DNA of 56,899 bases from a virus. The stretch spans positions 1 to 56,899 of IMG/VR virus record IMGVR_UViG_3300046817_000760; one strand, written 5' to 3'. A program made the position numbers and the translations under genes. The notes under the pieces are model-generated. The model had not been told where the DNA came from and did no database searches. It was given only the letters and a program-made list of their open reading frames with translations. Every line of letters starts with the position of its first letter. The stretch's first letter is position 1. Shown in pieces: positions 4,331 through 56,241 of this stretch.

Positions 4331-4525
4331 GTGCTCGTTGTGCACAGCGAGCACAATCGCGCGTCGCACACGTCCATCGCCAAGCTGACGATATCGGACA
4401 CTCTGACCAGCTATGAGTTCACCCAACTTTGCCAAGACACGCTCCATGTAAGTGAAGCTCACATGCCCCCATCCAGGGATACCGTGATGTTGGGGTCTCA
4501 TTTCAACCCAAGGATTTTTTCATGA
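4331..4525 (+). CDS. Doubtful small ORF
   Basis: GTG 4331 opens a 64-codon frame that runs through the leader at 4505 and ends overlapping the next ATG. Composition is unremarkable and the last residues (FNPRIFS) are the translated leader, so this may be non-coding. If it is not a gene, the stretch 4284-4504 holds nothing else I can identify; an opposing frame (4241-4501, minus) is equally unconvincing. Confidence 0.25.
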   Translation: MLVVHSEHNRASHTSIAKLTISDTLTSYEFTQLCQDTLHVSEAHMPPSRDTVMLGSHFNPRIFS

Positions 4526-4698
4526 CCAAGCAACACATTCAGTCGCCCTACGGAACAACTCTCTGCGGGCTCAACCAAACGGCACGCAAGACATGGGGTC
4601 TTAAGACTTGTGAGGTGTGTGCTCGTATCAATGCCCGCGCTGACGAGCTGCGTCAGCAAGCCACGGACAGGGCTAAGACCAAGCTCCCTAACAGATAA
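4522..4698 (+). CDS. Small Cys-containing protein (58 aa)
   Basis: ATG 4522 follows the type A leader at 4505-4521. Contains TLCGLNQTARKTWGLKTCEVCARINARADEL split as a C...CxxC arrangement (C15, C30, C33), possibly a small zinc-binding knuckle, followed by a basic helix. Function unknown. Confidence 0.6.
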   Translation: MTKQHIQSPYGTTLCGLNQTARKTWGLKTCEVCARINARADELRQQATDRAKTKLPNR

Positions 4699-4716
4699 GC
4701 TGGGCGAGGCAGCCAG

Positions 4717-4890
4717 GTGAACACCCCGCCCAAGATCGTGAAGCGCGTGTACGGCTACGCCTACCCTCGCAACGGCAACTTTCACAATCCCACACCGCGC
4801 GTCGCATGGGACCTGTTCGTCAACGGCAAGCTCGTTGACTCGTTCCCTACCAAGCGCGAAGCACTAGCCGCCATTGCTTCATACAAGTGA
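4717..4890 (+). CDS. Small hypothetical protein (57 aa)
   Basis: GTG 4717 lies 18 bases after the previous stop with GCGAGG upstream. Aromatic and basic (VKRVYGYAYPRNGNFHNP), then WDLFVNGKLVDSFPTKREAL, which looks like a short beta-hairpin followed by a helix. No family recognised. Confidence 0.6.
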   Translation: MNTPPKIVKRVYGYAYPRNGNFHNPTPRVAWDLFVNGKLVDSFPTKREALAAIASYK

Positions 4891-4922
4891 TTCCTTCCCC
4901 AAGATTTTTTAGGAGTACCCCC

Positions 4923-5096
4923 ATGTCCCACAAGCTTCCCCGAATCCTGCACCCCCGCTTCATCGACGAGACTCTCGAACGAGCACCCAAAGGTGCGACC
5001 ACCCTACATGCCCTCTACTGCATACCCGAGGGGGAGAACGTTCGGGTCATCGAGGATTGGAACTGCCTCCTGCGGCCACAGGACAAGGCATCGTGA
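4923..5096 (+). CDS. Small hypothetical protein (57 aa)
   Basis: AGGAG 9 bases before ATG 4923 and a type B leader (4897-4910) fix the start. The protein begins MSHKLPRILHPRFIDETLE. It is the last leader-bearing gene of the cluster. Confidence 0.65.
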   Translation: MSHKLPRILHPRFIDETLERAPKGATTLHALYCIPEGENVRVIEDWNCLLRPQDKAS

Positions 5097-5097
5097 T

Positions 5098-5205
5098 GTG
5101 GTGGATGCAGCCATCTCCGTAGCTACCTTCGTACCCAACCACTACGGCGGGTATGACCGTGTCGCACCTGACCCCACCATGGTGGATAGGATTCTCTGGG
5201 GCTGA
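5098..5205 (+). CDS. Possible micro-protein (35 aa)
   Basis: GTG 5098 (or 5101) begins one or four bases after the preceding stop, with AAGG upstream. Encodes VDAAISVATFVPNHYGGYDR and ends ...VDRILWG. The tight spacing favours translation, but the frame is short and unrecognised. Confidence 0.4.
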   Translation: MVDAAISVATFVPNHYGGYDRVAPDPTMVDRILWG

Positions 5206-5404
5206 CCGCTCTGTAACCACCGGCCGTAACCGCTTTGGGGTCGCCTTTCCTGAATGATTCCGGGCTTGCACCGTTGTAACCGGTTTTCTGCACTATACTC
5301 TCTATATCCTCCACAGAACTTTTGGCTGTTTTGACGGTTACATGGTTACATGGTTGTAATCATTAGGTAAGTACCGGTTACAAAACGGTTACAACGGTTA
5401 CAAA
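5206..5404. repeat. Iteron-like GGTTACA/TGTAACC cluster; possible replication origin
   Basis: GGTTACA occurs at 5336, 5344, 5376, 5387 and 5396, plus GGTTGTAA at 5352. Inverted copies (TGTAACC or GTAACC) lie at about 5212, 5226 and 5275. The copies flank an AT-richer stretch (5284-5335, with TATACTCTCTATATCC). Clustered iterons and an AT-rich segment beside a prim-pol/SF3 helicase gene, in the gap between convergent genes, fit an origin of the P4 or theta-plasmid type. The last repeat overlaps the helicase stop codon. Confidence 0.6.
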
Positions 5405-7716
5405 CCTCCTTCCATCAAGATGCCTGAGATTTTTTCCTCAAGTTCCTCCTCCAACCCCTCGTTCACGGCAAGTTGCCGAAGGGTGGACAGTCTGACGGCC
5501 CGCAGCTTCACGGGCTTGTCCTCGCCCAGCAGGTCCTTGCCAAACCTCAATGCCTTGCCCGAGCCTGGCTCTACCAAGGTCTTCATCACGTCGCCGAAGT
5601 CCTCGGGAACGTCCACCTTGCTCAGCAAGCTTGACCAGTACGTTTTGAGGTTGGTCTGCGATACCCACACCCGCCCATCACGAATGCAGCACACCCTCTC
5701 GTAGCGTTGGTCCTTGTCCAGAAGGGCATTGAGCAGTGCCCGCAGCACGGGTCCTGAGGCTTTCCCCCCCGCGCCAAGCAGCTCCGCCATGCCCCCTCGC
5801 CCCTGAACCAGGAAGCGCAGTCCCTTTGCCACCTGGCGGGTCTCCTGCAGCCACTGGACGTGCCGGGGCAGCCCGCCTCCAGCTACCCAAGCGTCTGTGG
5901 CTTCTCGACCCCCTAGCGCCTCCAGAAACCGCCTTGCTCCCTCGGTGGGCCGGACAAGCAGCACACGCTCGTCGAGCGCTTGGATGTCACTGTCAGTCAG
6001 CTGCCGGTCAAACTTGAACGACCCGGTGTTGTTGGTGGCCATGATGACCCGGTTGGCCCCCAAGAGGCGTGTAGGGTGGGCGTACTTCAACTCGACTTGC
6101 CGGGACGTGTTGCTGATCAGCTCTTTGAGGGCATCTACTGCGTTGCCGGTGTAACCCCGCGGGGCCCGTATGCCCTCGTTGGCCACCACCAAGGGCGAGG
6201 CCAGGAGCTCCTTGTTGAACTGCCCGAGCGTCCTATCGAAGGCGGTTCGCTGGCCGTCCCAGATGGCCGACAACCCATCGATCAACAAGTCCTTGCCCGC
6301 CCCGCTGAGGCCCATCACGCACAAGGCCGCCGTGGGCCGGGACAGTTCCCCCAGGGTGGCGAGCCAATCGAGCAAGGCATCACGGTGCTCCCCACCGAAC
6401 AGCTCTAGCCACTCAGCAATCTGAGGGTTGAACTCTGCTTTCCAAGGCTGCGGCTGCCCTACCTTTTGGACGAAGACGTTATCTACGAGCGTGCTGCGCT
6501 CGACCACGTAGGAGTAATGGACCTCGGTGAGAGACCGTCCGTACCTGTCGAGCAAAGTGGCCAGAGGTAAGAGTCTGCCTTCCTCGTTCTTGAGTTTCAC
6601 GGGTAAGACGTCGCGAGCCATGTTGACCACGAACTCGCGAAGGACCGGCCCCACGTACGAGCCCCTCGTCTCACGGAGGAAGTACCCAGCCGGGGTCCCC
6701 AGGATCCATCCCTTCTCGTCAGGTAGTATCAACTTGCTCCCATCCGGCCTTTGCCTGGAGGCAACCAGCTTGCCCCGGTACACCCCGTCCGTGACCGAGA
6801 GGGCATCGAGCTTGCGGAAAAACCAAGCCTTGTCGGTCTTTTCCGCGCAGTTCTCCAGTTTAGCTGTGGCCTCGAGAGTCCCCTTGAACACCTCGTACAA
6901 GCTCTCTCGGTCCAGGGGGACGTGGTCGACAAAGTTCCTCAACCCCCCCATCAGTTTATTGAACACGTCAGTCCGAGAGCCGTACTCCGCCCACGTCCTG
7001 CCAGCCAGGATCCTTTCCCCTGCCTCCACCACGTCCTGAGCGTCCTCGAACCTCTTTTTGTAGGTGATGAACGCTTCCATGTCTGAGCGTGTGAAGAGGC
7101 GTGTTCCCTCCAACTCGACAGGGGGAGCTGAGGGCAATACGTTCTGCTTGATCTTCTCCACGACCCACGAGGGAGCAGCCCGTAGTTTCTTCCGCTCGAT
7201 CTCCCCTTCGTACCTGGCCCCCGTCCAGTGAACGGAAGGGGGAACCACGATGTACCCCCCGGCCCCACGAACATCGATGTGTTGGGCACCAAGTCCACCC
7301 CGCGAGTTCGTGATACCCTCCTCGTACTGGTAGAGAAGGTGCGTACCCCCGCTCCCTGTTCGTAGGGCGATGGGTTCCCCCTCATCCCCGTACTGGTCCT
7401 GCAGCTCGCCCCATTCCCCAGGTCCATCGGGCAGGTCCAGGTCAATCACGAAGAACCCGGACTTGCCCGTGACCAGACCAATCCCGGCGTCCGGCCACTC
7501 AGCCCACCACCTAAGGATCTGCTCCTGGTCCCTGGAAGCATGGTCTTGCCAGGGGATGCGAGGGTGCTTGGCCTGGCACTCCCCCGCCCCTTTCCCAAGT
7601 GGTTTCCCGCACGAGCACTTGTCCCCTTGGGGTGAGTGCAAGGGGACGACGTAGAAACCCTCCATGGCATACTGGAGGGCATGGGGGGTGTTGGTCGCAG
7701 GGACGAGTGTGGGCAT
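5398..7716 (-). CDS. Bifunctional prim-pol primase / SF3 helicase
   Basis: Replication initiator: an archaeo-eukaryotic primase-type domain joined to a superfamily 3 (D5/P4 alpha-like) helicase, 772 aa. N-terminal motifs are a CxC...C...H zinc knuckle (C34, C36, C47, H51), IDLD (91-94), GSGGTH (121-126) and HIDVRG (146-151), the three catalytic prim-pol motifs. The helicase has Walker A GLSGAGKD (469-476), Walker B-like LVVANEG (509-515) and sensor VIMATNN (557-563). Its start follows a promoter-like TTGCCG-N16-GGTACT. The iteron cluster lies at its 3' end. Such proteins synthesise primers and unwind the origin. Confidence 0.92.
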   Translation of the reverse strand: MPTLVPATNTPHALQYAMEGFYVVPLHSPQGDKCSCGKPLGKGAGECQAKHPRIPWQDHASRDQEQILRWWAEWPDAGIGLVTGKSGFFVIDLDLPDGPGEWGELQDQYGDEGEPIALRTGSGGTHLLYQYEEGITNSRGGLGAQHIDVRGAGGYIVVPPSVHWTGARYEGEIERKKLRAAPSWVVEKIKQNVLPSAPPVELEGTRLFTRSDMEAFITYKKRFEDAQDVVEAGERILAGRTWAEYGSRTDVFNKLMGGLRNFVDHVPLDRESLYEVFKGTLEATAKLENCAEKTDKAWFFRKLDALSVTDGVYRGKLVASRQRPDGSKLILPDEKGWILGTPAGYFLRETRGSYVGPVLREFVVNMARDVLPVKLKNEEGRLLPLATLLDRYGRSLTEVHYSYVVERSTLVDNVFVQKVGQPQPWKAEFNPQIAEWLELFGGEHRDALLDWLATLGELSRPTAALCVMGLSGAGKDLLIDGLSAIWDGQRTAFDRTLGQFNKELLASPLVVANEGIRAPRGYTGNAVDALKELISNTSRQVELKYAHPTRLLGANRVIMATNNTGSFKFDRQLTDSDIQALDERVLLVRPTEGARRFLEALGGREATDAWVAGGGLPRHVQWLQETRQVAKGLRFLVQGRGGMAELLGAGGKASGPVLRALLNALLDKDQRYERVCCIRDGRVWVSQTNLKTYWSSLLSKVDVPEDFGDVMKTLVEPGSGKALRFGKDLLGEDKPVKLRAVRLSTLRQLAVNEGLEEELEEKISGILMEGGL

Positions 7717-7805
7717 AGGGGTAGACAGTACCGCTCAGACCGTACCCACGGCAACGTCCAGCTTCTCTCTTGACCCCTGCCCGTGATCTGCCCGATAGTG
7801 GACAA
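7714..7805 (-). promoter_or_regulatory. Divergent promoter region of the prim-pol gene
   Basis: On the minus strand TTGCCG (7754-7749), 16 bases, then GGTACT (7732-7727), with the ATG 10 bases further on. The same TTGCCG-N16-GGTACC arrangement precedes the leftward microgene operon at 18090. On the plus strand TTGACC (7770-7775) and GATAGT (7794-7799) lie in front of ATG 7806. Confidence 0.5.
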
Positions 7806-8060
7806 ATGCCGCGCCCACCGAGCCATCTCAAAGCCGACAAGTTCCGCTTACCCAAAGATAAAAAGACTCCCACGGTCTTCACCCCACCCCCCACCATCTC
7901 GCTACCCCTGTTTGACTTCGAGGCAGCGTACGTGATTGGTGCCTTGATCGACGCTCAAGAACGAGCTGCTTCGCAGGAAGGGGAAGTCTTTCAGCAAAAG
8001 GCCAAGGCCCTTTCCCTCATTGCTGCACGAATCGCCAAGGCATTTCGGGAACGGAAGTAG
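7806..8060 (+). CDS. Small hypothetical protein (84 aa)
   Basis: ATG 7806 is preferred; TTG 7770, also in frame, appears to be part of a -35 box. No Shine-Dalgarno is visible, and the putative -10 (GATAGT) is only six bases upstream, so the message may be leaderless. The N-terminal half is basic and proline-rich (HLKADKFRLPKDKKTPTVF), the C-terminal half helical and alanine-rich. A terminator follows. Confidence 0.6.
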   Translation: MPRPPSHLKADKFRLPKDKKTPTVFTPPPTISLPLFDFEAAYVIGALIDAQERAASQEGEVFQQKAKALSLIAARIAKAFRERK

Positions 8061-8068
8061 TTCTAGAC

Positions 8069-8098
8069 AAGGGACAAGACCAGAGGGTCTCCCTTTTC
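8069..8098 (+). terminator. Rho-independent terminator
   Basis: AAGGG-ACA-AGACC-AGAG-GGTCT-CCCTT followed by TT: a ten-base-pair stem with a three-base bulge, ending in a short T-run, nine bases after the stop of the preceding gene. Confidence 0.65.
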
Positions 8099-8118
8099 CT
8101 TGGTGTACTTGCGCTGCT

Positions 8119-8138
8119 GATCGGTGTATTCACCGATC
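8119..8138. promoter_or_regulatory. Perfect inverted repeat abutting a start codon
   Basis: GATCGGTG-TATT-CACCGATC, an 8-bp dyad with a four-base loop, ends directly at ATG 8139. It could be a repressor operator or an mRNA hairpin occluding the start. Confidence 0.6.
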
Positions 8139-8396
8139 ATGCAAGAGCGCACGCACCTGAGGGTTGTGCCTTCTCCAGTGGACACGTCCGACAAGGACAT
8201 GAGCACGTCCGACAAGGACATGAGCACGTCCGAAGCGGACATGTCTGATGTGTACATGGCAGCAGACGATGTGGACATGGCAGAGACACCCACATCCTCC
8301 GATATGGTCAAGCGCTATTTGTGTGTCGCACTGATTACGTTCTTGATCGAACTCACAATCTTCGCAATCATCGGACTCGTAATGGCTAGTCAGTAG
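8139..8396 (+). CDS. Small membrane protein with Asp/Ser/Met repeats (85 aa)
   Basis: ATG 8139 immediately follows a perfect inverted repeat; an upstream in-frame GTG (8124) lies inside that repeat and is less likely. The middle carries repeats of the form T-S-D-K-D-M-S, encoded by two identical 21-bp units (8184-8225) and a degenerate third. The C-terminus is a single transmembrane segment (LCVALITFLIELTIFAIIG). Topology suggests an acidic N-terminal domain and a C-terminal anchor. Function unknown; a superinfection or lysis-control role is only a guess. Confidence 0.55.
   Translation: MQERTHLRVVPSPVDTSDKDMSTSDKDMSTSEADMSDVYMAADDVDMAETPTSSDMVKRYLCVALITFLIELTIFAIIGLVMASQ
8184..8246 (+). repeat. 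21-bp tandem coding repeat
   Basis: Two identical 21-bp units (8184-8204 and 8205-8225) and one degenerate copy (8226-8246) encode the T-S-D-K-D-M-S motif of the small membrane protein, a sign of recent slippage or duplication. Confidence 0.85.
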
Positions 8397-8446
8397 ACCA
8401 TTTAGGGACAGCAAGTAAACAATACAAAAATAGTTTGGGGGGTTGG

Positions 8447-8647
8447 ATGTTCTACGTGATTACACTGCCCGCGTGCCGCGTGATGGGGTTCAAGTCGGAC
8501 ATCCGTTCGGCCCAACAGATCGTCGAGTGCTTGGGCGAGGGGGCCGAGTACGAAGAGATGGAGGGGCCGTACCCTCGTGACGAATGGACGATGGCCCTGA
8601 CGATTGAGCGGTACAAACGCGGCAAGGGGCTAAGGCTGGTTGTCTAG
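8447..8647 (+). CDS. Small hypothetical protein (66 aa)
   Basis: ATG 8447 follows a G-rich GGGGGGTTGG. The protein begins MFYVITLPACRVMGFKSD and has an acidic centre (GEGAEYEEMEGPYPRDEW). Unrecognised. The following gap (8648-8749) contains a promoter. Confidence 0.55.
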   Translation: MFYVITLPACRVMGFKSDIRSAQQIVECLGEGAEYEEMEGPYPRDEWTMALTIERYKRGKGLRLVV

Positions 8648-8713
8648 ATCCCCCCATCACGATTGCCGGACCAGGGGGCATGACTCGACCATGGGGGCCA
8701 AACAGGTATTTCC

Positions 8714-8743
8714 TTGACCCGGTGGGCAGGCAGGCCCTAACCT
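8714..8743 (+). promoter_or_regulatory. Putative promoter of a possibly leaderless gene
   Basis: TTGACC (8714-8719), 18-base spacer, TAACCT (8738-8743); the ATG is only six bases after the -10 box and no Shine-Dalgarno is present. A leaderless transcript is inferred. Confidence 0.5.
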
Positions 8744-8749
8744 TGGGGA

Positions 8750-9142
8750 ATGCAATCACGTTACGGAGCCACCCTCAAGACCCGCCCTGAAGAGGTCCAA
8801 GTCCGACTCGTCCCCAAAGTCCTTGGACCGCCAGTGCAGGTGACCTTTACGGAAGACGAGCGCAAGGCCGTTTTCCGCGCCACTTTGGAATTCGGCACGC
8901 CCCTGTCCACGTTCCTCCGAGACCTGGCCGTAGAAGCCGGTTCCCACCTGCACGAAAGGGCGGCCCAAGAGGCCCCCGCCGACAGGCGAGTGCAGTGGGT
9001 GGTGGAGCAAGGGGCAGCGGAGTGCTCGATGAGACCGGGGGAGTTTATGCGCTTCCTGGCCCTAGAGGCCGTGGGCTACACGCGCGGCGTCGAGCTAGCG
9101 ATGGCAGCGAGGCAAGCACTCGCGGCAAGGAAAAAGCTCTGA
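8750..9142 (+). CDS. Ribbon-helix-helix-like DNA-binding protein (130 aa)
   Basis: PVQVTFTEDERKAVFRATLEF followed by LSTFLRDLAVEAGSHL has the strand-helix-helix spacing of RHH proteins related to plasmid mobilisation regulators. A second, weaker helix-turn-helix-like pair (VVEQGAAECSMRPGEFMRFLALEAVG) follows, so it may be an internal duplication. The gene has its own promoter and sits at the head of a rightward operon, fitting a regulator. Assignment is by pattern only. Confidence 0.55.
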   Translation: MQSRYGATLKTRPEEVQVRLVPKVLGPPVQVTFTEDERKAVFRATLEFGTPLSTFLRDLAVEAGSHLHERAAQEAPADRRVQWVVEQGAAECSMRPGEFMRFLALEAVGYTRGVELAMAARQALAARKKL

Positions 9143-9163
9143 CCTGGGTTTGACCAAGGCGGA

Positions 9164-9201
9164 GTGGTCTCGGTCTGCCGTTTGTGGTACTCACCTGCAT
9201 G
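9164..9201 (+). promoter_or_regulatory. GGTAC-type promoter or operator motif
   Basis: TTTGTGGTACTCACCTGCATG, overlapping the start codon at 9199, matches the motifs at 18171 and 20551. The hexamer 16 bases upstream of GGTACT is GTGGTC, a weak -35 match. See the finding on the GGTAC family. Confidence 0.5.
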
Positions 9202-9417
9202 GAAGAAGAAGCCTGTGGTGTGGGCAGTGTCGAACGCAAGGCGGTCCTGGCTGCCATGGAAGGGCGAGCGGACGCCCTACACGCGATGCCGATATGGCAG
9301 CTCGAGGAAGCTGCGGCAGCACTCGCTTATTGCAAACGACAAGGGTGCAGACTCCATAACGACCCTGCCGCACAAGACCTTATCGAACAGATTCTGGACA
9401 GGGGACCGTGGTGGTAG
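9199..9417 (+). CDS. Small hypothetical protein (72 aa)
   Basis: ATG 9199 directly follows the GGTAC motif; the frame open to 9184 lies in the motif. Acidic N-terminus, then helices (LEEAAAALAYCKRQGCRLHN). The 3' end overlaps the start of the nuclease gene by ten bases, so the two are probably co-translated. Confidence 0.6.
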   Translation: MEEEACGVGSVERKAVLAAMEGRADALHAMPIWQLEEAAAALAYCKRQGCRLHNDPAAQDLIEQILDRGPWW

Positions 9418-10847
9418 ACTCCCACCTCTCCCCTACAGGAGCACCTTTCCTCTCTGTGTCCCAGGTAGAGACCGCCTTCGGCAATGAAGGGTGTCTGTTC
9501 AAGTGGGGACAGAGGTACCTTGCTCGTAACCTCCCACCACGTGATGGGTCTGCAGACTTGGGGACTCGTATCCATGAGATCAATCAGACCTTCATGGAAA
9601 CAGGGGCGGAGCCTGACTACTCCGAAACTCTGACACTCTGGCACAAGAGGAGGGCCGAATGGATCACGTACCAACCCGCACTGATCTGGAAGGTAGGGAT
9701 GCCCCTTCTCCCCCCGAGGGAGAGGGTCAAGTGCGAGGGGAAGTTCCAGTTTACAACGTCCATACATGGAGACCCGGTCTACTGGCGAGGGGCCAAGGAT
9801 ATGGAGTGGCAAGATTCCTCCGGCCTGTGGCACGTAGGGGATTTGAAAACATCCGTGTCGTTCACGTACCAGAAGACCGAAGAGAAGCTAAGGGCCGATT
9901 GGCAAGGGAACTTGTACGCCTACGAAGCTATGCAAAGGCATGGTGTCAAAGCCGTGGCTTTGGATTGGTTCACGTACATCACTGATCCAACGAAAACCCG
10001 AGAGTGCCGCCCCACCTCGATAGTGGTCCTCTATCCCGAAGTTTATGAGATCGTGGCCGCCATAGAAGGCAAGGGACGGGTCTTGCTTTCACACTACGCA
10101 CGCCCCCTGATCGTCGATAGACTGCCGAAGAACAGGTCAGCCTGCCAAGCGTTCGGCGGGTGCCCCTATTTGAATTCCCCGGCTTGCCCGGCTGAAACTC
10201 TAGAGGAAATGTTCGATATGCCCCTACATGATGATTTCCTGCAATCGATGACGACAAGGCTGGCGCCTCCTCCTCAACCATGGCGCCCTGGTGACCCCCT
10301 GAACTCGGCCCAAGAATACTTGCAAAATGCAGGGGCACCGCTCAGTGCAATTGCCAATGCAGCCGACGTCCCGCCCCTACCCGAGGTGGCCGCGGGCTAC
10401 GTGCCACCCCCGCCACCCCCGCCCCCGGTACTCCCATGGCCTCCTGTGGAGTCTGGCCTAATAAATCCGCCCGAGTCGAAGGGCCTTGTTGCTCCCCTCG
10501 CCCCCGAGGACATGGCTGCACCCCCCATCACGACACCTCCACCCACGCCCCCCATGCCCGATGACCTGGACACTCTGGACAGGGAGGAGATCAAGGCGCT
10601 TGGCGTCGAGCTGGGCCTGTTCGATGCCCACTGCCGATGGCAGATTGCACGCATGAGGGAGGCTGTACGAGCGAAGCGCAAGAGCAATGGTCTGCAAGGT
10701 ATTGCCCCCCCTGTGGAGGAGACTCCCACCCCACCAGTGCCTTTCATTGCTACCCCTGCACCTGACGGTTTGGAGATGCAGCAAATCTCGGAGACAAGGA
10801 TTCGTCAGATTGTCCGAGAAGAACTCCGCGCCCTATTTGTACCATGA
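9408..10847 (+). CDS. Cas4/RecB-type Fe-S nuclease with C-terminal SAP-like domain
   Basis: PD-(D/E)xK exonuclease-type protein, 479 aa. It has LGTRIHE (51-57), GDLKTS (144-149, catalytic D and K) and a following Q (166). Cysteines at 29, 246, 252 and 260 match the one-plus-three pattern that holds a 4Fe-4S cluster in Cas4 and AddB. A proline-rich linker (about 335-380) leads to DREEIKALGVELGLFDAH, resembling a SAP or Rho-N DNA-binding helix pair. Such proteins resect DNA ends for recombination; with the nearby helicase and polymerase a role in phage recombination or replication is likely. The GTG start overlaps the preceding gene. Confidence 0.82.
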   Translation: MVVDSHLSPTGAPFLSVSQVETAFGNEGCLFKWGQRYLARNLPPRDGSADLGTRIHEINQTFMETGAEPDYSETLTLWHKRRAEWITYQPALIWKVGMPLLPPRERVKCEGKFQFTTSIHGDPVYWRGAKDMEWQDSSGLWHVGDLKTSVSFTYQKTEEKLRADWQGNLYAYEAMQRHGVKAVALDWFTYITDPTKTRECRPTSIVVLYPEVYEIVAAIEGKGRVLLSHYARPLIVDRLPKNRSACQAFGGCPYLNSPACPAETLEEMFDMPLHDDFLQSMTTRLAPPPQPWRPGDPLNSAQEYLQNAGAPLSAIANAADVPPLPEVAAGYVPPPPPPPPVLPWPPVESGLINPPESKGLVAPLAPEDMAAPPITTPPPTPPMPDDLDTLDREEIKALGVELGLFDAHCRWQIARMREAVRAKRKSNGLQGIAPPVEETPTPPVPFIATPAPDGLEMQQISETRIRQIVREELRALFVP

Positions 10848-11194
10848 GAATCAGATGTATCTCGGTAGACCCGTTCTGTGATGCCTTCTTGGCCAAGCAG
10901 GACAATGCCAGCAAGACTATCCGTACGGCGTTGCAGCTCTATGCGGACAAGCACGAGAGCTTGCAGGCTGGGGACATAGTCCAGCTCGACCCCGAGCAGA
11001 GTCCCTGGGGGCCCCTCCTGTGCATTGTCACGGAGGTGTGTGAATGGGGAGTCAAGTGCTTTTGGCTGCAGGCAGACGAGCGCGACAAGCCACCCTTGGT
11101 CTGCCACTACCGAGCGAAGACAGGGACCTTCGAGGTTGTGGGAAGCGCAAGGTGGGTGCTTAGCGCGACCACCGATACCCAGGGCGAAGGCTGA
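10844..11194 (+). CDS. Small RHH-like protein with C-terminal beta domain (116 aa)
   Basis: Starts in an ATGA overlap with the nuclease gene. SVDPFCDAFLAKQ-x-NASKTIRTALQLYADK resembles the ribbon-helix-helix of CopG/ParD proteins. The second half (AGDIVQLDPEQSPWGPLLCIVTEV) looks like a small beta-barrel. The 3' end overlaps the convergent helicase gene by 35 bases. Function unknown; DNA binding inferred. Confidence 0.6.
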   Translation: MRIRCISVDPFCDAFLAKQDNASKTIRTALQLYADKHESLQAGDIVQLDPEQSPWGPLLCIVTEVCEWGVKCFWLQADERDKPPLVCHYRAKTGTFEVVGSARWVLSATTDTQGEG

Positions 11195-12902: not shown

Positions 12903-12949
12903 GTACTTGCGATACTGTCCTGCAGGTTCGGGTGCAAGGGAGGAACGTG
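12903..12949. promoter_or_regulatory. Divergent intergenic region between helicase and the rightward operon
   Basis: Minus-strand TTGCAC (12935-12930) and TATCGC (12912-12907), 17 bases apart, fit a promoter for the helicase. On the plus strand GGGAGGAA (12938-12945) is the Shine-Dalgarno of ATG 12950. Confidence 0.5.
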
Positions 12950-13991: not shown

Positions 13992-14040
13992 TCTAGCTTT
14001 CTCGGTCCTGTTCGACTACTAAACCCTCAGGGGGGAGAAC

Positions 14041-14823: not shown

Positions 14824-14843
14824 CCTTTCCGGGGGGAAAAGCC

Positions 14844-15056: not shown

Positions 15057-15059
15057 GCC

Positions 15060-46673: not shown

Positions 46674-47086
46674 CAGACTTCGAAGCATTCCGGCCAAAGA
46701 CGCAATGGCAGGCAGTCCCTACGTCTGAGTTCGTACGTCGAGAAGGCCACGTGATTGATCTGGGCACGTACGTGCAGCCGCTACGTGATGGCTTGCGCGC
46801 CATCGTTACCATAGACCTAGCCTCTGACGTGGGCGCGGGGGACTGGCTGCATCTCAGCATTTCGCGAGCACGGCGCCTGCCCACGTGGGGAGACCTCGTC
46901 ACAGCACGCGATGCCCTCGGCTACGAAGACATCTACTTCGTGCAACAACTGCCGCCCCGCCGCAACTGGCTCAATGTCCATAGTTTCTGCCTCCACCTCT
47001 TGCATCGACTAGATCAAGAGACAGTGCCGCGCCTCCTTTGGGCAGACCAAGAAGGCGCGACAGGCAAAAACTACGAACACGGCTAG
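46670..47086 (+). CDS. DUF7694-like conserved phage protein (138 aa)
   Basis: ATG 46670 overlaps the upstream stop. GDWLHLSISRARRLPTWGDLVTARDALG...QQLPPRRNWLNVHSFCLHLLHRLD matches a phage family with 'W.H.S.SR..R.P....L......F......QVLPP...WVN.H..CLHL'. Last gene of the rightward island; converges on the capsid gene with one base between stops. Confidence 0.65.
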   Translation: MTDFEAFRPKTQWQAVPTSEFVRREGHVIDLGTYVQPLRDGLRAIVTIDLASDVGAGDWLHLSISRARRLPTWGDLVTARDALGYEDIYFVQQLPPRRNWLNVHSFCLHLLHRLDQETVPRLLWADQEGATGKNYEHG

Positions 47087-47087
47087 G

Positions 47088-48290: not shown

Positions 48291-48297
48291 CTAAACC

Positions 48298-49383: not shown

Positions 49384-49420
49384 GCCCGAACCGTGAATGC
49401 CCTGCTATCTTGATTGCCCG

Positions 49421-49753
49421 ATGCCCTTCACAGACCTCCACGAGTTGCGTGATGAGATGGATGGGTTCACCGATCATGAGAAGGTGGATGCAAGTCACCT
49501 AGACAAGATCGCGGGGCAGTGGCGACACGACCGCGAATGGCTCTCCCGTGATTGGCACATCCCTAAAACCAAGTTTCAGGTTCGTGCAGAGAGATGGGCG
49601 GCAAGGGCCGCACGCGCTCTGCCCTCAGACCCTGATGAACTCCGCCTTCTCCTCTACAAGGTCAGACAGGAGGCGGGGCGCCGGGAGGTAGCGCCATCGG
49701 ATCGGCCTGGGGCAAAGCTATATCCCCGCCAGGGGGTAAGGCACCGGGAATAG
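49421..49753 (+). CDS. Small hypothetical protein (110 aa)
   Basis: ATG 49421 chosen; a TATCTT box 9 bases upstream could make the message leaderless. Contains DLHELRDEMDGFTDHEK and a tryptophan-rich segment (WRHDREWLSRDWHIP). Its 3' end overlaps the portal gene on the other strand by 92 bases. Function unknown. Confidence 0.5.
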   Translation: MPFTDLHELRDEMDGFTDHEKVDASHLDKIAGQWRHDREWLSRDWHIPKTKFQVRAERWAARAARALPSDPDELRLLLYKVRQEAGRREVAPSDRPGAKLYPRQGVRHRE

Positions 49754-51692
49754 CTCCGGGTCCACCTGGTCCTGGCCCCATGGGTGGGAGTGTCCCCGGG
49801 TCCGGGGGCGGAGGCGCATTGGCCGCAGCCACTGCATCGGCCCGCCCCTTCACCGTGTCCATCAGCCGCCGAAACTGAGTCAGCACTTCTGGGTCCGCAC
49901 CCTCGCGCTTGGCCTTCAGGTACTCAGTCCTGAGCAGAGGCCCGAACACCGCCACGTCCAACTCAGGCGGGATGCCCACGACCTTGTTATCCAAGACTTG
50001 GTCGATCAAGAACTGAGAATAAAGCGTGTCCTCCGTGTCATCGTCCGCTTGGCCTTCCGTGTCCGGCATGGCCGAGAGCATCTTCGCGGTCTGCTGCGTG
50101 CACCACCCCGCCTCCACCCAACTTTGGACCGTGTCGAACTGCGCGGCTGTGCTGCCCACGAGCTGAGACACGGGGAGCACGGCCATCTTGGCCTCGGTCG
50201 GCTCCACCATGATGTCCTTCCACTTGCTGGACAGGAGCCAAGCATTGCGTGCAGCCCGATCCACCTGGAAGGCAGGGTTGTCCAAGGCGACTCGGTCGTT
50301 CGTGTCAACCATGGCTTGGGAGCACTGGAGAAGGAACCTCTCGAGGAAGCGGAGGGGTCGGACGTGTCTCTTCGAGGAGATGTCCTCGGCTGCCCGTTGG
50401 CCCACTGCTGAGGTAACGCCCGTGGGGGTCTGACCGGCCACCTGTTGCTGGGTCATTCCCAACATGGAAAGAGTCTGCTCGCGAATGTTCTCGATCGTGG
50501 CTTCTAGGTCATGCGGGGTGGCGTCGACCGTGAAGAAAGCCGGGGGCGTGTCCCCGTCATAGAGATGGATTTGGACTGCACTGTTTGTGACTTGCTCGGG
50601 CTCGACCATGGAGCCCTTTTTGAGGAACACTCGGGCAGTGCTCCCAAGGGTCTGACAACGTTGGACGTGGTCCGCGAGTTGTTCAATACGGAGCTGGGCA
50701 GGCTTGCAGACGTCCACCAAGGACACGCCGGGCAGGCCCAGTTGGGGTGGTTCCCACCCACGTAGGATCCCAAACGGGAGGCGCATCGTGGTCCACTCGT
50801 CCCCGATGAGCTCCGCCCCTTGGATGGAGAACGAGTGCCGCCCATCCTTGGCCTCTGCAGCCGAAGGTAGCTTCCAACCCTCGTACACCATGACCAAGTT
50901 CGCGTCCGAGCTGGTCTCTAGCTGGAAGTCGGTCTTGTCGAGCGGGCCGGGCCCGGGGGCTCTCTTGATGCAGTCCATGTGCTCGGGGTACAGCTCGATC
51001 AGCACGTCCCGGTTGTAGGGCGCGATATGGTGGAGCTCCCTTATCTCCCCCGTGACCGCAGCCTGAGGGTCCCAAATCAGGGAGAGGGGAAGGACCCGCT
51101 CGCAAGCGGTCATGGCCCCCTCGGTATCCGAGTCCTCGAAGAACTTGACTGCCCCGAGGCGACACACCAACGCATCGATGATGGCCTTGTCCACCTCTTC
51201 GAACAGACCGATCGCCTGCACCTGTTGCTGGATCGCCTGGTTCCTCAATAATACTTTCCTGCGGAGCTTCCAGTTCGCGCCCCTGGTCTGGCAGAACGGA
51301 AGGGTCCGGGCCGCACTCATCATGGACGCGCCCGTGTCCGTGATGCTCTTGATCAAGTTGTAGCGGAGCTGCTTGCCGAACAACGTGTTGCGGGTACCAT
51401 TCACGTTCATGGAGCCCGCGTACAGGCGCATGTTCTCCAGGACTTCTCGCCGGTAAGCTGTCAGTTGAACGAGGCGCAGCCCGTTCACCCGAGAGAAGAG
51501 AGCGTCCGCGGCCTCCTTGCCCTCCAGCAGGTACCAAGGCGTGGCGGCCCCTGACTCGGTGTATCGGCTCCCAGACTTCTTCTGGACCTTCGGAAGGTGT
51601 TTGTCCTCCTTGGGCTTCTTCCCGATCTTCTCAGGTACGTGTACCTTGAGTGTCGAGGGAGGCGTAGGGCGCTTACTCGTGCGGGGGGCCAT
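49662..51692 (-). CDS. Portal protein
   Basis: 676 aa, length and organisation of podovirus portals: N-terminal extension, clip and stem regions (FCQTRGANWKLRRKVLLRNQ, LPLSLIWDPQAAVTG), ELHHIAPYNRDVLIE, a TLSMLGMTQQQVAGQTPTGVTSAVGQRAAEDIS segment and a C-terminal Pro-rich tail. Follows the small-terminase module and precedes scaffold and coat genes, the usual head-gene order. Confidence 0.85.
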   Translation of the reverse strand: MAPRTSKRPTPPSTLKVHVPEKIGKKPKEDKHLPKVQKKSGSRYTESGAATPWYLLEGKEAADALFSRVNGLRLVQLTAYRREVLENMRLYAGSMNVNGTRNTLFGKQLRYNLIKSITDTGASMMSAARTLPFCQTRGANWKLRRKVLLRNQAIQQQVQAIGLFEEVDKAIIDALVCRLGAVKFFEDSDTEGAMTACERVLPLSLIWDPQAAVTGEIRELHHIAPYNRDVLIELYPEHMDCIKRAPGPGPLDKTDFQLETSSDANLVMVYEGWKLPSAAEAKDGRHSFSIQGAELIGDEWTTMRLPFGILRGWEPPQLGLPGVSLVDVCKPAQLRIEQLADHVQRCQTLGSTARVFLKKGSMVEPEQVTNSAVQIHLYDGDTPPAFFTVDATPHDLEATIENIREQTLSMLGMTQQQVAGQTPTGVTSAVGQRAAEDISSKRHVRPLRFLERFLLQCSQAMVDTNDRVALDNPAFQVDRAARNAWLLSSKWKDIMVEPTEAKMAVLPVSQLVGSTAAQFDTVQSWVEAGWCTQQTAKMLSAMPDTEGQADDDTEDTLYSQFLIDQVLDNKVVGIPPELDVAVFGPLLRTEYLKAKREGADPEVLTQFRRLMDTVKGRADAVAAANAPPPPDPGTLPPMGPGPGGPGAIPGALPPGGDIALPQADPMALPPGAPPPV

Positions 51693-51741
51693 TGAGCGAA
51701 GGGTGCTCGACCTCCGCTATTGGTTGCCCTAGACCCAAGGA

Positions 51742-51978
51742 ATGAAGAGCGAACACGACCATTGGGGCGAGATGCGGGCACTGCGCAAGAAGATGCGGCG
51801 CGCAATCGACAACCCCTACGAGCGGGCACTCCTGTGGCAGCGCTACGTGGAACTCTCCCACTCGCTCGAAGCGACCTACTCGCCCAAGTGGCAGGCGCAC
51901 GACGCGGCGATCGAACAGAGGGCCAAGCGCCGGGTGGTCCGTGCCGTCAACAAGGCCAACCCATGCTTGTCCGGGTAG
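51742..51978 (+). CDS. Small helical protein (78 aa)
   Basis: Begins only one base after an AAGGA, so translation from this ATG is not certain. Strongly helical (ALRKKMRRAIDNPYERALLW, RYVELSHSLEATYSPKW) and basic at the end. Divergent from the portal gene; overlaps the next gene. Confidence 0.5.
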   Translation: MKSEHDHWGEMRALRKKMRRAIDNPYERALLWQRYVELSHSLEATYSPKWQAHDAAIEQRAKRRVVRAVNKANPCLSG

Positions 51979-52148
51979 TCGCACCGCACTTCGTGGCAGG
52001 GCTGGAAGTCGAACGCTGCGAAGACGGCGAGGAGCGATGCGTGTACGCGGCCCCCATCTTGCGCTGGGCCGTAGGGAAGACACGCATCGATCTACAAGAA
52101 TACTTTCGCCGATCGGGCTGGAAAGCCTCGGTCGTGGCTACTGACTGA
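51963..52148 (+). CDS. Small hypothetical protein (61 aa)
   Basis: ATG 51963 lies inside the preceding gene's end. Contains VAPHFVAGLEVERCEDGEERCVYAAPILRWA. Converges on the 52138 gene with an 11-base overlap. Unrecognised. Confidence 0.5.
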   Translation: MLVRVVAPHFVAGLEVERCEDGEERCVYAAPILRWAVGKTRIDLQEYFRRSGWKASVVATD

Positions 52149-52488
52149 CCCTAAATATGCACTTGGCTGCATACGCACGGGCCGTGTCCAGGTCTGGTAG
52201 CAACTTGAACTTGGTCAGGCGATGGGCGTAGAGGAGACGTAGATTGGTACAGGCCACGTCATAGTTTCGGCCTGCCGCTCGGAGCCGTCCTAATAGCGGG
52301 AAGTCTTCTATGGAGGACACCATCACGTCCTCGCCCAAGGGGGACACGACCAGGTAGTAGACGTGGTTTCCTTCATACTCATGTGAAGCCTGAGCCTGGC
52401 GGTTCAGGCGTTGCTCGTTGTCGGCCTCGAGTTGTTCACCCACCTGGCGGCAGCGCTCGGCGAAATCCGTTCCGATGAGTTTAGACAT
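52138..52488 (-). CDS. Hypothetical protein (116 aa)
   Basis: ATG 52488 overlaps the upstream gene by 8 bases. Helical N-terminus rich in Gln/Glu, then LVVSPLGEDVMVSSIEDF. Possibly a minor virion or assembly factor. Unrecognised. Confidence 0.55.
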   Translation of the reverse strand: MSKLIGTDFAERCRQVGEQLEADNEQRLNRQAQASHEYEGNHVYYLVVSPLGEDVMVSSIEDFPLLGRLRAAGRNYDVACTNLRLLYAHRLTKFKLLPDLDTARAYAAKCIFRVSQ

Positions 52489-52855
52489 TCCACCTCTTGC
52501 TCTTCCTTTCCATGGGATGAGCTTGGGACTGGGTGACAGGGAGGAGGGTTCCTGACTGGGGCCGGTCTTGTTCCTTTTTAGGGACTTCCTTTACTGTCCC
52601 TGTTTGCGCACACGCCTCTTCCCGCATCGGGTTACACCAATAGGGGATACCCGACGCTACCACTTGGGCACCCGTGATGGAGGTGATGTAGATAGTACCG
52701 TCTTCGGACCTCTCCAGGGTCACGCGGGCATTGTCTGACCGGAAGTCTCGACGCTCAAACAAGCCCTGGGCGGAGGGGTCTTGTACGGGCATCGCAAACA
52801 CGACTCGGGAAAGCTTGGTCATCGAAGTGCCAATGGTGGTATTATTCATCTTCAT
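52481..52855 (-). CDS. Hypothetical protein (124 aa)
   Basis: ATG 52855 (52849 also possible) overlaps the small-terminase gene. Beta-rich middle (VTLERSEDGTIYITSITGAQVVASGIP) then a Lys/Arg/Pro-rich C-terminus. Unknown function. Confidence 0.5.
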   Translation of the reverse strand: MKMNNTTIGTSMTKLSRVVFAMPVQDPSAQGLFERRDFRSDNARVTLERSEDGTIYITSITGAQVVASGIPYWCNPMREEACAQTGTVKEVPKKEQDRPQSGTLLPVTQSQAHPMERKSKRWNV

Positions 52856-53819
52856 CCTTGATCCCCGCGAACTCCATGTTTCGCCCCAACCTGTCCCGCG
52901 GGGGTTCGTAGGGCTTGGGTACGCCGGACGTGTCAGCGGAAAGGGACCTTCCTTCCTTCATGGCTTGGAGCATGATCAAGAGTTCTTGAGCACTCTTGCC
53001 CGCCACTTCCGAGGCTTCGACCGTCTTATTGAGGGCCGGGCGGTTGGCCCATCGCACATGGAAACGACGTTCGAGCATGAACGCGGCAGCTCGCCAGTCC
53101 GTGACCGCTCCCTCGTTCAGGCGCGAAACCCAGTTGGCTTCGCAGCTGGCTTTGGCCACGAGCATGGCACTCCACCATCGGGCGAAGGGCGTGTCTTTGC
53201 CCTCGGCAATGTCTCGCCGGCCCCGCGCATTCCAGTTCCTTACTTTGTCTATCTTCAGTCCCATACTTGCTGCAGCGATCAGCATGTTGATCCCACTTGC
53301 AACCAGGAGGGCCATGCGCTCCGTACGGACTGCGTCACACCTCAGATCGTAGTCCGAACTCTCGAGTCCATCGTGCTCGTGGACTGCATAAGACGTCTGA
53401 CCAATAGACAAAACCTGAGGGATCGGACCCTCAGGCACTTCCGCAACCTTACTCTCCGTGTCCGGGAGAAAAGGACTCCTTCCACGAGGCTTTTTGCGGT
53501 TTCCTCTGGGCTTTCCCTCCTCGCGATGATGCCCCGTGATGTGGGGTTTGAGTCCCCCGTCTGCTGCACGACCTGAGTATCCATCTCTGAGCTTTTTGGC
53601 CTTGGCCGGGGGCTCAGACTTGACCTCAACCGGGGGCTCAGGTTTGACCTCAACCGGGGGCTCAGACTTGACCTCAACCGGGGGTTCCGGTTTGGCCTTG
53701 GCTGGGGGCACAAACACAGGCTTCAGCAGAGGCTCGTACGGAGTTCTAGCCTGCGGAGGCGTCGCAATGATCGGCGTCGCGCCTAGTTTCAGTGCCCAAT
53801 AGTTACCGCGGCGGGACAC
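52842..53819 (-). CDS. Terminase small subunit-like protein
   Basis: 325 aa. An N-terminal region carries tandem EPPVEVK(S/P) repeats, followed by a basic, low-complexity stretch. The C-terminal part (MLIAAASMGLKIDKVRNWNARG...PFARWWSAMLVAKASCEANWVSRLNEGAVTDWRAAAFMLERRF) has the HTH and 'DWRAAAWLLERRF' end typical of phage small terminases. Packaging-site recognition is inferred. Confidence 0.72.
   Translation of the reverse strand: MSRRGNYWALKLGATPIIATPPQARTPYEPLLKPVFVPPAKAKPEPPVEVKSEPPVEVKPEPPVEVKSEPPAKAKKLRDGYSGRAADGGLKPHITGHHREEGKPRGNRKKPRGRSPFLPDTESKVAEVPEGPIPQVLSIGQTSYAVHEHDGLESSDYDLRCDAVRTERMALLVASGINMLIAAASMGLKIDKVRNWNARGRRDIAEGKDTPFARWWSAMLVAKASCEANWVSRLNEGAVTDWRAAAFMLERRFHVRWANRPALNKTVEASEVAGKSAQELLIMLQAMKEGRSLSADTSGVPKPYEPPRDRLGRNMEFAGIKDEDE
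53606..53700 (-). repeat. 24-bp tandem coding repeats in the terminase-like gene
   Basis: CCGGGGG begins at about 53606, 53630, 53654 and 53678, giving a 24-bp period that encodes the EPPVEVK(S/P) octad. Copies differ by a few bases. Confidence 0.85.
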
Positions 53820-54030
53820 GGGAACTCTCCATCAGAGCTTCCCCATACGTACAGCCAGGGAACTGAACCAGAAGCCGATGAATGGTCTGCGCGTACCCTG
53901 GGTCCTCGGCAACTGCTGTTAGCTCTGTTGCTTGCGAGGCCGTGAGCTTGCCTTCGAGGTGCATCCGCACGATTCGGTGCAAGCGTCGCCCAACAATGTA
54001 TTGAACTCTGGCGCTAGGGTTGTAGCTCAT
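53803..54030 (-). CDS. Small protein (75 aa)
   Basis: ATG 54030 preferred (MSYNPSARVQYIVGRRLHR). Mainly helical (MHLEGKLTASQATELTAVAED). Overlaps the terminase-like gene by 17 bases and the upstream gene by 17. May assist packaging; function unknown. Confidence 0.55.
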   Translation of the reverse strand: MSYNPSARVQYIVGRRLHRIVRMHLEGKLTASQATELTAVAEDPGYAQTIHRLLVQFPGCTYGEALMESSRVPPR

Positions 54031-54523
54031 GCACGAGGGTAACGTGTTCGCCGGACCCAAGCAACTCCACTCTACTAGTTCTCAAGTGTAAAGCCTTGGC
54101 AACACTCGTCCTTTTCCATCCCTTAGCGAGGAGATGCCCGTCAAAACGAGTCTCGAATGCAAACAATCGGGCTTCGCCTGCTCCCTCTTCCTCGGCTAGG
54201 GCAGTTGCTGCATTTAGGAGGGAAGTGAACACTCCCTCTCTCCTACTCCAGCTCTTCGAGTACCCCATCCATAGGACAAGAGCCGAGGGCATCGCCTCCA
54301 CGCAAACCCATCCTCTAATGACGGTCGGAGTCTCGGGGTCGTGAGCCACGAGCACGATCGGATCTGCCCCCAGAATGGAAGAGCATTCGCTGTTAGCGAG
54401 TGCGTAGTAGGCCGCGTTTCCTAGATCGGAGTACGGACGCAGGCTCTTCTTCCAGGAGCTGTGTATGAAAGAGAGGTCAGAGGCACGGGCAGGGCGGAGG
54501 AGCATATCTCCAGAAAAGCCCAC
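54014..54523 (-). CDS. GNAT-like phage protein (169 aa)
   Basis: LLRPARASDLSFIHSSWKKSLRPYSD followed by IVLVAHDPETPTVIRGWVCVEAM and FTSLLNAATALAEEEGAGE resembles N-acetyltransferase-fold proteins found upstream of terminase in other phages. The acetyl-CoA motif is degenerate, so enzymatic activity is uncertain. ATG 54505 is an alternative start. Confidence 0.6.
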   Translation of the reverse strand: MGFSGDMLLRPARASDLSFIHSSWKKSLRPYSDLGNAAYYALANSECSSILGADPIVLVAHDPETPTVIRGWVCVEAMPSALVLWMGYSKSWSRREGVFTSLLNAATALAEEEGAGEARLFAFETRFDGHLLAKGWKRTSVAKALHLRTSRVELLGSGEHVTLVHELQP

Positions 54524-54695
54524 TCACCCTTCTCATTGCCCGAGTTATAAGGAGTTTAGGAGGTTATACAATGCCCTTTGGTCCCCCCGGAGCCAGGGGT
54601 CGAAAACCCTATCCATCCTCTATCTGTGCACTAAAGAGGCTATGTCCTCCTCCAAAGCGCCAGCCTCGATTCTGGGAGTCAAGTCCGACCAGTCG
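54524..54695. other. Intergenic region with tRNA-like fragments
   Basis: GAGGTTATACAATGC and AGGGGTCGAAAACCCT resemble parts of a tRNA, but no acceptor stem pairs, so I do not annotate one. A 79-codon frame (54465-54704, plus) appears spurious. A GGGCAATGA element lies at about 54532-54540. Confidence 0.4.
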
Positions 54696-54893
54696 TTAGC
54701 TTAGACTCTGCCCCGTCACCCACGCAAGCCGACGTCGGAGCATCTCATTTTCCAACCTCAGCTGCTCCTTCTCCATGGTCAGGAGCTCCTTCTCCTCCTG
54801 ATGCTCCTTAATAAGGAGAGCAACCTGCCTTGCTGCCCAAATGGGGGAGATGAAGCATTGCCACGGGGTCAAGGTTCGGAGCTCAAAGTCCAC
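54696..54893 (-). CDS. Coiled-coil protein (65 aa)
   Basis: GTG 54893 lies within the end of the upstream gene. N-terminus LRTLTPWQCFISPIWAARQ, then a leucine-zipper-like helix (LLTMEKEQLRLENEMLRRRL). Unrecognised; possibly a regulator or assembly factor. Confidence 0.55.
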   Translation of the reverse strand: MDFELRTLTPWQCFISPIWAARQVALLIKEHQEEKELLTMEKEQLRLENEMLRRRLAWVTGQSLS

Positions 54894-55209
54894 CGAACTC
54901 CTCCGTGATGGAGGGGCGATATCTCGCCAGAACCTGCATCGCCCATCGACGTGGCCGATAGCTCCCGTCCACTCCTGTCGTTCGACCCCGCACTCCTTGT
55001 TCCGTGGGAGGTGCTTTGGCCAGGAGGTGGGCAAGTACGCAAGCTGCATGTCGCTCGCCGTACATGCGAACTGCATTTTGGAAGAAAGATTGGAGAGCTG
55101 ACTCCACGTCTCGATCAAAGGCCGCCCGGACTCGATAGGACACTCGTTCCTCCCCCAACGCGATCGTGAGGAGGGTGTGTGTGCTTCGGGGGCGGTCCGA
55201 TTTGATCAA
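54883..55209 (-). CDS. Hypothetical protein (108 aa)
   Basis: TTG 55209 overlaps the upstream stop (TTGA), matching the ATGA/GTGA coupling used elsewhere. Contains VRAAFDRDVESALQSFFQNAV and a helical middle. Unrecognised. Confidence 0.55.
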   Translation of the reverse strand: MIKSDRPRSTHTLLTIALGEERVSYRVRAAFDRDVESALQSFFQNAVRMYGERHAACVLAHLLAKAPPTEQGVRGRTTGVDGSYRPRRWAMQVLARYRPSITEEFGGL

Positions 55210-55466
55210 AACCTGTCCTCCATGATCGGGGTCTCCTCCCAACGAGGGTCCGTGTCGTTAAAGGGAGAGGCAGGCACATCCTCATACAGATGATCGGTCG
55301 TGTACCCCAAGGCCCTGAGTGTCTCGAACACACCCCGTGACCGAGCCTTGGCCAGACTCCCTACGATCGTACGAACGGGGTCTTCCCCGTCTGCAATCCT
55401 CGAAGCAAGCTTGGCCGCGAGCTCCCAATCGTGTTCACGGGCTTTGGACTTGAGAAAACGGGGCAT
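55206..55466 (-). CDS. Hypothetical protein (86 aa)
   Basis: GGAGG upstream supports ATG 55466. Contains RFLKSKAREHDWELAAKLAS and LAKARSRGVFETLRALGYTTD; mostly helical. First gene of a small leftward operon divergent from the resolvase. Confidence 0.55.
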   Translation of the reverse strand: MPRFLKSKAREHDWELAAKLASRIADGEDPVRTIVGSLAKARSRGVFETLRALGYTTDHLYEDVPASPFNDTDPRWEETPIMEDRF

Positions 55467-55608
55467 GAGGACCTCCAAAATGAACTTGTTTCTTATGACG
55501 ATGGCCTCTTTCCCATGTAACGAAGCCCCCCGGCGAGGTCAACTTTGTACGGTATTTACGTTACAAATCGGTGTTTTGGTTTTGATTTTTAACAGGCCCC
55601 TCCATAAG
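55467..55608. promoter_or_regulatory. Divergent regulatory region of the resolvase
   Basis: TTTGTA (55544-55549) and TACAAA (55562-55567) form a dyad overlapping GTTACAA, the core of the 5.3 kb iterons; TGTAACG occurs at 55516. A T-rich run (TTTTGGTTTTGATTTTT) follows. Possible resolvase operator or an origin-related site. Confidence 0.5.
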
Positions 55609-55617
55609 ATGGAACCC

Positions 55618-56241
55618 ATGAGTTCAGTCTTTGGCTACGCACGAGTCAGCACGAGTGACCAAACGGTCGCGCCCCAGGTGGATGCCCTTGTCCGAGCTGG
55701 AGTTTCACCTGAAAACATCTATCGTGATGAGGGGGTTTCCGGCCTTGTTTTGGGCAAGGAACGAGTGGCTTTCGCCAAGTTGCTTCTGTCCCTGAAGCCG
55801 GGAGACACGCTTGTGGTTGTTCGGTTGGATCGACTTGGCAGGAGCGTGGTCGACGTCCTTCAACAAGTTGAAGCGTTGACCGGACGGGGGATCACAGTCC
55901 GATCCTTGGGGGAGGGAGTGGACAGTTCCACACCTGCCGGGAGAATGGTCCTCACCGTGATGGCGGGGTTGGCAGCTTATGAACGTGAGCTCATGATGGA
56001 GCGGCAACGAGCTGGGATTGAATCGGCCCGAAAACGGGGGACTCACATGGGGAGGCCGTGGAAGCTAAATGCAGCTCAGAAGGACCTCGTCCGAGATCTT
56101 CTGATCGCGGGAAAGATGATCTCGGACGTGGCTCAGGTGCTTGGTTGCTCGGAATCGACCGTTCGGCGGTGTGCCCAGAGACTTGTAGAGGAGAAGGAAG
56201 CTAGGGAATTGGCCGCCACCCAGGTTACAGCCTCACTGTAA
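55618..56241 (+). CDS. Serine recombinase (resolvase/invertase)
   Basis: 207 aa. The catalytic Ser11 lies in YARVSTSDQ; R69, R72 and R75 in VVRLDRLGRS; Glu124 in YERELMMERQ; and a C-terminal HTH (about 163-185, LLIAGKMISDVAQVLGCSEST) of the Hin/resolvase type. It could resolve dimers of a circular phage genome or invert a segment; no obvious inverted tail-fibre segment is seen. ATG 55609 is an alternative start. Confidence 0.92.
   Translation: MSSVFGYARVSTSDQTVAPQVDALVRAGVSPENIYRDEGVSGLVLGKERVAFAKLLLSLKPGDTLVVVRLDRLGRSVVDVLQQVEALTGRGITVRSLGEGVDSSTPAGRMVLTVMAGLAAYERELMMERQRAGIESARKRGTHMGRPWKLNAAQKDLVRDLLIAGKMISDVAQVLGCSESTVRRCAQRLVEEKEARELAATQVTASL

Follow-up and report, generated by a model that had tools for sequence, protein, structure and literature searches.

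A selected heptamer, CGTGATG, dispersed through a phage genome as a candidate priming word of its Prim-Pol

The 56,899-bp virus record IMGVR_UViG_3300046817_000760, analysed over its whole length (hereafter the window), carries many dispersed copies of the heptamer CGTGATG (complement CATCACG) and encodes, among the proteins listed in Table 1, a primase-polymerase (Prim-Pol) of the AEP class. Genes were predicted with a home-made codon model, and their individual borders are approximate. The heptamer is a genuine element, spread genome-wide and kept by selection, and most likely serves as the place where an enzyme of DNA copying or DNA repair lands. A search of a phage collection returned no close relative of this phage, and the literature searched describes neither CATCACG nor CGTGATG as a motif of phages.

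Table 1. Positions of the heptamer copies, the motif-free end and the recognised phage genes in the window.
Feature	Position	Strand	Basis
Dispersed array, 81 copies	4030..55962	.	exact counts
CATCACG copies	5584 5676 6313 6378 8655 10526 11726 12440 12618 13554 14148 15355 16914 17574 19333 21016 21762 24014 24158 24896 26234 26846 26888 29850 31582 31980 32854 33316 33489 35543 36921 39016 42795 52321	+	
CGTGATG copies	4030 4483 5092 8479 9540 12946 14535 15713 18259 20510 21449 23023 23604 24116 25135 26157 26568 27460 27885 28581 29541 31614 34170 34338 35325 36144 36810 37977 38395 40079 42906 43521 44027 44402 44824 44992 46784 47682 48102 48631 49448 51339 52673 53535 54904 55723 55956	+	
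Motif-free end region	1..4029	.	p = 0.0026 under uniform placement
Prim-Pol (AEP) primase-polymerase, C-terminal DUF5906 helicase-like domain, 772 aa	5398..7716	-	PF09250 1.6e-33 (whole model), PF19263 1.7e-7, phrog_1156 DNA primase
PD-(D/E)XK exonuclease-like protein	9456..10847	+	phrog_69 exonuclease 2.8e-5; PF12705 3.6e-4, just below cut-off
DEAD-type helicase	11160..12902	-	PF00270 5.5e-6; phrog_62 2.7e-10
Family A DNA polymerase	18659..20551	+	PF00476 1.1e-15; phrog_17 3.8e-52
DnaQ-like exonuclease subunit	20570..21121	+	phrog_192 8e-24
Tyrosine integrase	25923..27086	+	phrog_1 8e-35, PF00589
Terminase large subunit	32087..33487	-	phrog_2 8.8e-32
Terminase small subunit-like	52842..53819	-	phrog_4102 1.3e-8

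The plus strand holds 34 exact copies of CATCACG and 47 of CGTGATG, which confirms the enrichment reported in the original prediction, where about 32 and 43 had been tallied; several of the copy positions quoted there were off by 1–2 nucleotides, the correct ones being 12618, 21762, 26846, 44992 and 52673. The expectation from both-strand Markov models is 7.4, 8.3, 10.4 and 18.8 copies at orders 0, 1, 2 and 3, so that against composition (orders 0–2) the count stands at 81 versus 7–10, roughly an eightfold excess. Models of order 4 and 5, whose expectations rise to 35.5 and 72.8, absorb the excess because the sub-words ATCACG and CATCAC are already enriched. Among all heptamers the pair ranks first under both order 1 (z ~25) and order 2 (z ~22), its density over the whole record is 1.42 per kb, and the reversed, non-complemented reading does not occur at all. 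Most of the 21 one-mismatch neighbours lie at expectation and the highest, in which the first C of CATCACG is replaced, reach about 2.5-fold; the enriched unit is essentially the exact heptamer. A longer hidden motif was considered and rejected, the flanks holding only small signals that probably reflect codon-position composition.

Sixty-seven of the 81 copies lie inside predicted genes, on both strands, with the word in the frame C-ATC-ACG in 34 cases, CGT-GAT-G in 16, C-GTG-ATG in 15 and another frame in 2. When synonymous codons were shuffled within genes, 17.1 ± 3.6 copies remained (maximum 28 in 1,000 shuffles) against the 67 observed, and when codons were pooled across genes before shuffling 13.8 remained. 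The CGT-GAT-G frame is expected only 1.4–1.6 times, and strictly intergenic DNA (8.8 kb) carries 11 copies against 1.1 expected, an approximately tenfold excess. Shuffles and counts between genes together exclude codon-pair bias (ATC ACG, GTG ATG), named beforehand as the explanation that could refute the prediction, and the idea of a genome-wide polar motif independent of coding is borne out, with a polarity clearer in the right half of the genome than in the left. Repair bias of the very-short-patch type was also rejected, as the C-to-T neighbours that it would drain are not depleted. The 80 bp upstream of predicted starts contain 14 of the 81 copies (8.6 expected), too slight an excess for a gene-start element. 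A stoperator or operator array, the repressive role that had also been suggested, finds little support, since the word is short and non-palindromic and sits mainly in genes, not at gene boundaries.

The copies are more regularly placed than random (coefficient of variation of spacing 0.76 against 0.98 expected, p = 0.0065), in keeping with the even spread first described, and their density reaches a maximum of 2.0 per kb at 20–33.5 kb (27 copies, p = 0.05), between the polymerase and large terminase genes. The left end is empty, as had been noticed, but its boundary lies at 4029 and not near 4.4 kb, the first copy starting at 4030 instead of about 4482. Orientation shifts along the genome (change-point permutation p = 0.008). 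To the right of 33.5 kb, 25 of 30 copies read CGTGATG on the plus strand, and the dominance claimed for this form from 34 kb onwards therefore stands; the dominance claimed for CATCACG from 5 to 24 kb proved weak, the left part being mixed with CATCACG in excess (CATCACG:CGTGATG 15:8 at 4.4–20 kb and 14:13 at 20–33.5 kb). The orientation on the two sides remains different when only minus-strand genes are counted (15:5 versus 4:20, p = 0.0002), and gene direction is therefore not the whole cause.

Three sister contigs, all from one other metagenome, share the word: L009 has 27 copies in 12.3 kb (1.9 expected), L011 has 8 in 7.1 kb and L012 has 5 in 7.3 kb. In segments of less than 80% identity to these sisters (about 75%), 9 of 20 sites are shared, compared with 125 of 829 composition-matched words (p = 0.0017), while six copies are confined to the sisters and five to the window, several of them differing by two or more substitutions. 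Retention above the control, combined with new copies at other positions, places the word under selection; what is maintained is a generic site and not a set of fixed positions, the word being kept while its positions drift. The enrichment is clade-specific: outside the sisters, no viral contig or phage examined is comparable over its full length. Relatives at a greater distance, linked by similarity in the portal region or the Prim-Pol (L014–L024), hold 1–4 copies, mostly near expectation. When all viral contigs were scanned for three close copies, 48 loci came up, and in none of them did the record as a whole show a similar enrichment. No relative was found among genome contigs scanned with two phage proteins, and no near relative in plasmid searches with the resolvase, the integrase, the tRNA and a 3-kb end stretch.

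Several further features were observed in the window. In and just past the motif-free end, at 3077–4530, five CAACCCAAGGATTTTTCA-like elements stand directly before predicted starts (3077, 3316, 3690, 4083 and 4501) and resemble start-associated sequences. Positions 1–163 and 56737–56899 contain a 127-bp direct repeat, present at both ends and built of 18-bp tandem units (GTCTCGACGCCGGGCCGC); the genome may be circular or terminally redundant, or the repeat may only mark a point within tandem units at which the assembly broke off. Adjoining the tandem repeats, at 56540–56680, is a very GC-rich palindromic stretch of the CGCGCG type, a possible origin or packaging region. Two plus-strand genes within the mainly minus-strand region (45611–46396 and 55618–56241) encode a protein with transposase-type helix-turn-helix domains and a serine recombinase/invertase. 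The genome also encodes a GH5 cellulase domain protein (22501–23769; PF00150, 5e-17) and a tRNA-Tyr with GTA anticodon (15531–15616).

CGTGATG is proposed here as a candidate priming word of the phage's own Prim-Pol replication system, with a rough probability of 0.42; this reading, which the original prediction did not raise, is rated slightly ahead of a Chi-like one. The Prim-Pol would read CGTGATG on a single-stranded template and start primers there; selection would then have spread the word over both strands, at about one copy per 0.65 kb (one per 1.2–1.7 kb per strand), and its direction would tend to follow local fork movement. We infer both the recognition of the word by the enzyme and the meaning of its polarity as a mark of replication. 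The catalytic residues D92, D94, H126 and D148 do not vary across eight aligned Prim-Pols, and the C-terminal part matches the solved NrS-1 primase (6k9e/6k9c) weakly, with an E value of ~1 that is not significant alone. The Prim-Pol domain also contains a cysteine-rich CxCG...KHP insertion, common to the window, Klebsiella phage KLB24, Serratia phage Niamh and Pseudoalteromonas phage H40/1, which may form a zinc site. The heptamer contains GTGA, a GTG(A/G) core of the studied enzymes: primers of ORF904 start on GTG, and NrS-1 polymerase, for which GTGA and GTGG are among the most efficient motifs, begins the primer at the nucleotide immediately 5' of them (PMC8718748, PMC12205980).

Dispersed words also occur in other Prim-Pol phages. 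Klebsiella phage KLB24 and Serratia phages PhooPhighters, Niamh and Bonzee, with hosts of two genera, have AGTGGTGGAA in common, its core GTGGTGGA occurring 12–21 times against 0.3–0.5 expected; it contains GTGG and differs from the known enterobacterial Chi. Copies of AGTGGTGGAA often have a G-rich stretch on the 5' side. MW202816, a Prim-Pol/DnaB phage of 37.6 kb, carries CCGTCGG 43 times (3.2 expected), and Vibrio phage 69E27.1 carries dispersed copies of AACCCAAA (17 against 1.0). Other words were seen in passing: CTGCAG in MW202816 (36 against 4.1), GGCGGCGG in 69E27.1 (30 against 1.1) and, in a 20-kb viral locus (L015), CCAGTACC (16 against 0.6) and CCTGTGCC (16 against 0.8), which look clustered by dispersion score. 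Of the phages compared, six have no recognised Prim-Pol (T7, HK97, BPP-1, D3112, lambda and MW202621; MW202621 checked against Pfam, the other five by annotation), and these lie at or near background, the top octamers of T7 being pieces of its known promoters. In this length-matched comparison a strong dispersed word is present in 4 of the 11 Prim-Pol lineages and in none of the 6 other phages, T7 promoter pieces aside, a difference that is suggestive only: it is not significant, and the window was itself the discovery case. The general proposal that Prim-Pol phages write an extended, lineage-specific primase recognition word over both strands (CGTGATG here, AGTGGTGGAA in the Klebsiella and Serratia phages), so that primase specificity would be readable from sequence, is tentative, with the odds somewhat against it.

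That lack of significance is one of several points that weigh against the priming role. GTGA occurs 461 times against 512 expected, and 380 against 503 outside the heptamer, so that the core tetramer is not enriched; the seven-base requirement therefore exceeds the 3–4 bases of the studied enzymes, and a short-core primase site alone was rejected. NrS-1 holds only two copies of its own 8-nt site (PMC7102993), the orientation bias of the heptamer is weak over the left half of the genome, and the enriched words CCGTCGG and AACCCAAA lack GTG. Seven Prim-Pol phages lie at background (Pseudoalteromonas H40/1 and its relative C7, Streptococcus Sfi11, Methanomicrobiales vir555, MW202444, MW202898 and, when matched for length, Arthrobacter KingBob), H40/1 among them although its enzyme has the cysteine-rich insertion; the link between GTG and this insertion was noticed after the fact.

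The closest rival is that CGTGATG is the regulatory word of the host RecBCD or AddAB enzyme, copies of which are kept by a phage without its own annealing recombinase so that host enzymes recombine its DNA instead of degrading it. Such a Chi-like role, raised in the original prediction, stays one of two live readings, favoured by the over-representation and the polarity shift and disfavoured by the mixed left half; we consider it a serious contender that nonetheless falls short of even odds. Recombinase-lacking phages are enriched in the Chi of their host, above all in the stretch from origin to packaging site, and carry it at about 0.2 per kb (PMC3784561). Pfam and PHROGs scans of the phage proteins recognised no RecT/Erf/Sak/UvsX-type recombinase, although most proteins had no match of any kind and divergence of the proteome is great enough for a recombinase to escape detection. 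The density maximum falls in the interval bounded by the polymerase and large terminase genes, and the polarity shift goes beyond gene direction, both as this role would have it. As a positive control, the top-ranked octamer of KLB24 is the E. coli Chi, GCTGGTGG, with 22 copies against 0.7 expected (2 in PhooPhighters, 0 in Niamh). However, the density of the heptamer is about seven times that reported for Chi in recombinase-lacking coliphages, and no published Chi word resembles it: the proteobacterial candidates comprise GCTGGTGG and four near variants. Most lineages are without a known Chi (PMC8022716), and the phage's host could therefore use CGTGATG. The strongest dispersed word of the Serratia phages is not the enterobacterial Chi, from which it follows that strong phage words need not be Chi.

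It is unlikely that the word is instead the site of another DNA-binding protein of phage or host (nucleoid, partition or repair) or a host modification mark exploited by the phage. The selection on the word and its strict seven-base requirement, with one-mismatch neighbours little enriched, would suit a sequence-specific binder or a modification enzyme, but the same protein scans recognised no methyltransferase or ParB-like gene, and the word is neither palindromic nor clearly clustered at starts. Moreover, phages usually avoid modification sites and do not enrich them. That the word simply follows from codon or dinucleotide usage (Ile-Thr ATC ACG, Val-Met GTG ATG), or from mutation bias of the very-short-patch type, is highly improbable, as the prominence of the C-ATC-ACG frame among genic copies is outweighed by the shuffles, the CGT-GAT-G copies and the intergenic excess, all of which contradict it.

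If CGTGATG is a priming word, some phages would be adapting their entire sequence to the primase, priming specificity would become predictable from sequence alone, and lagging-strand initiation in phages with AEP primases would become directly testable. If it is a Chi word, it would add a new candidate Chi for a lineage that lacks one and would hint at the host of this orphan phage. Under either reading, the window is a clear example of selection preserving a seven-base word while its positions turn over.

Among known systems, the cyanobacterial HIP1 (GCGATCGC) is likewise a hyper-abundant word found throughout the genome, but it is palindromic and tied to orphan methyltransferases, whereas the word of this phage is not symmetrical, and the protein scans recognised no methyltransferase. 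Chi in recombinase-lacking phages (Bobay et al. 2013, PMC3784561) is closer in kind, being an exact, asymmetric, short and dispersed word, over-represented and partly polar, in genomes with no recognised recombinase; it differs in sequence, in its far lower density and in that the word here has mixed orientation in half of the genome. The priming sites of AEP Prim-Pols (NrS-1 polymerase and pRN1 ORF904; PMC8718748, PMC7102993) span 3–4 bases, or form an 8-mer present only twice in NrS-1, and genome-wide enrichment of a long priming word is not reported in the literature examined, a search there for over-represented primase sites having returned nothing; they agree with the window in the enzyme class, which the phage encodes, and in the GTGA within its word. 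Lastly, AGTGGTGGAA of the Klebsiella and Serratia phages is longer, rarer (12–21 copies per ~40 kb) and unrelated in sequence, and the role of either word is putative, but like CGTGATG it is a dispersed, non-palindromic, lineage-specific word in a Prim-Pol phage with exonuclease and helicase genes.

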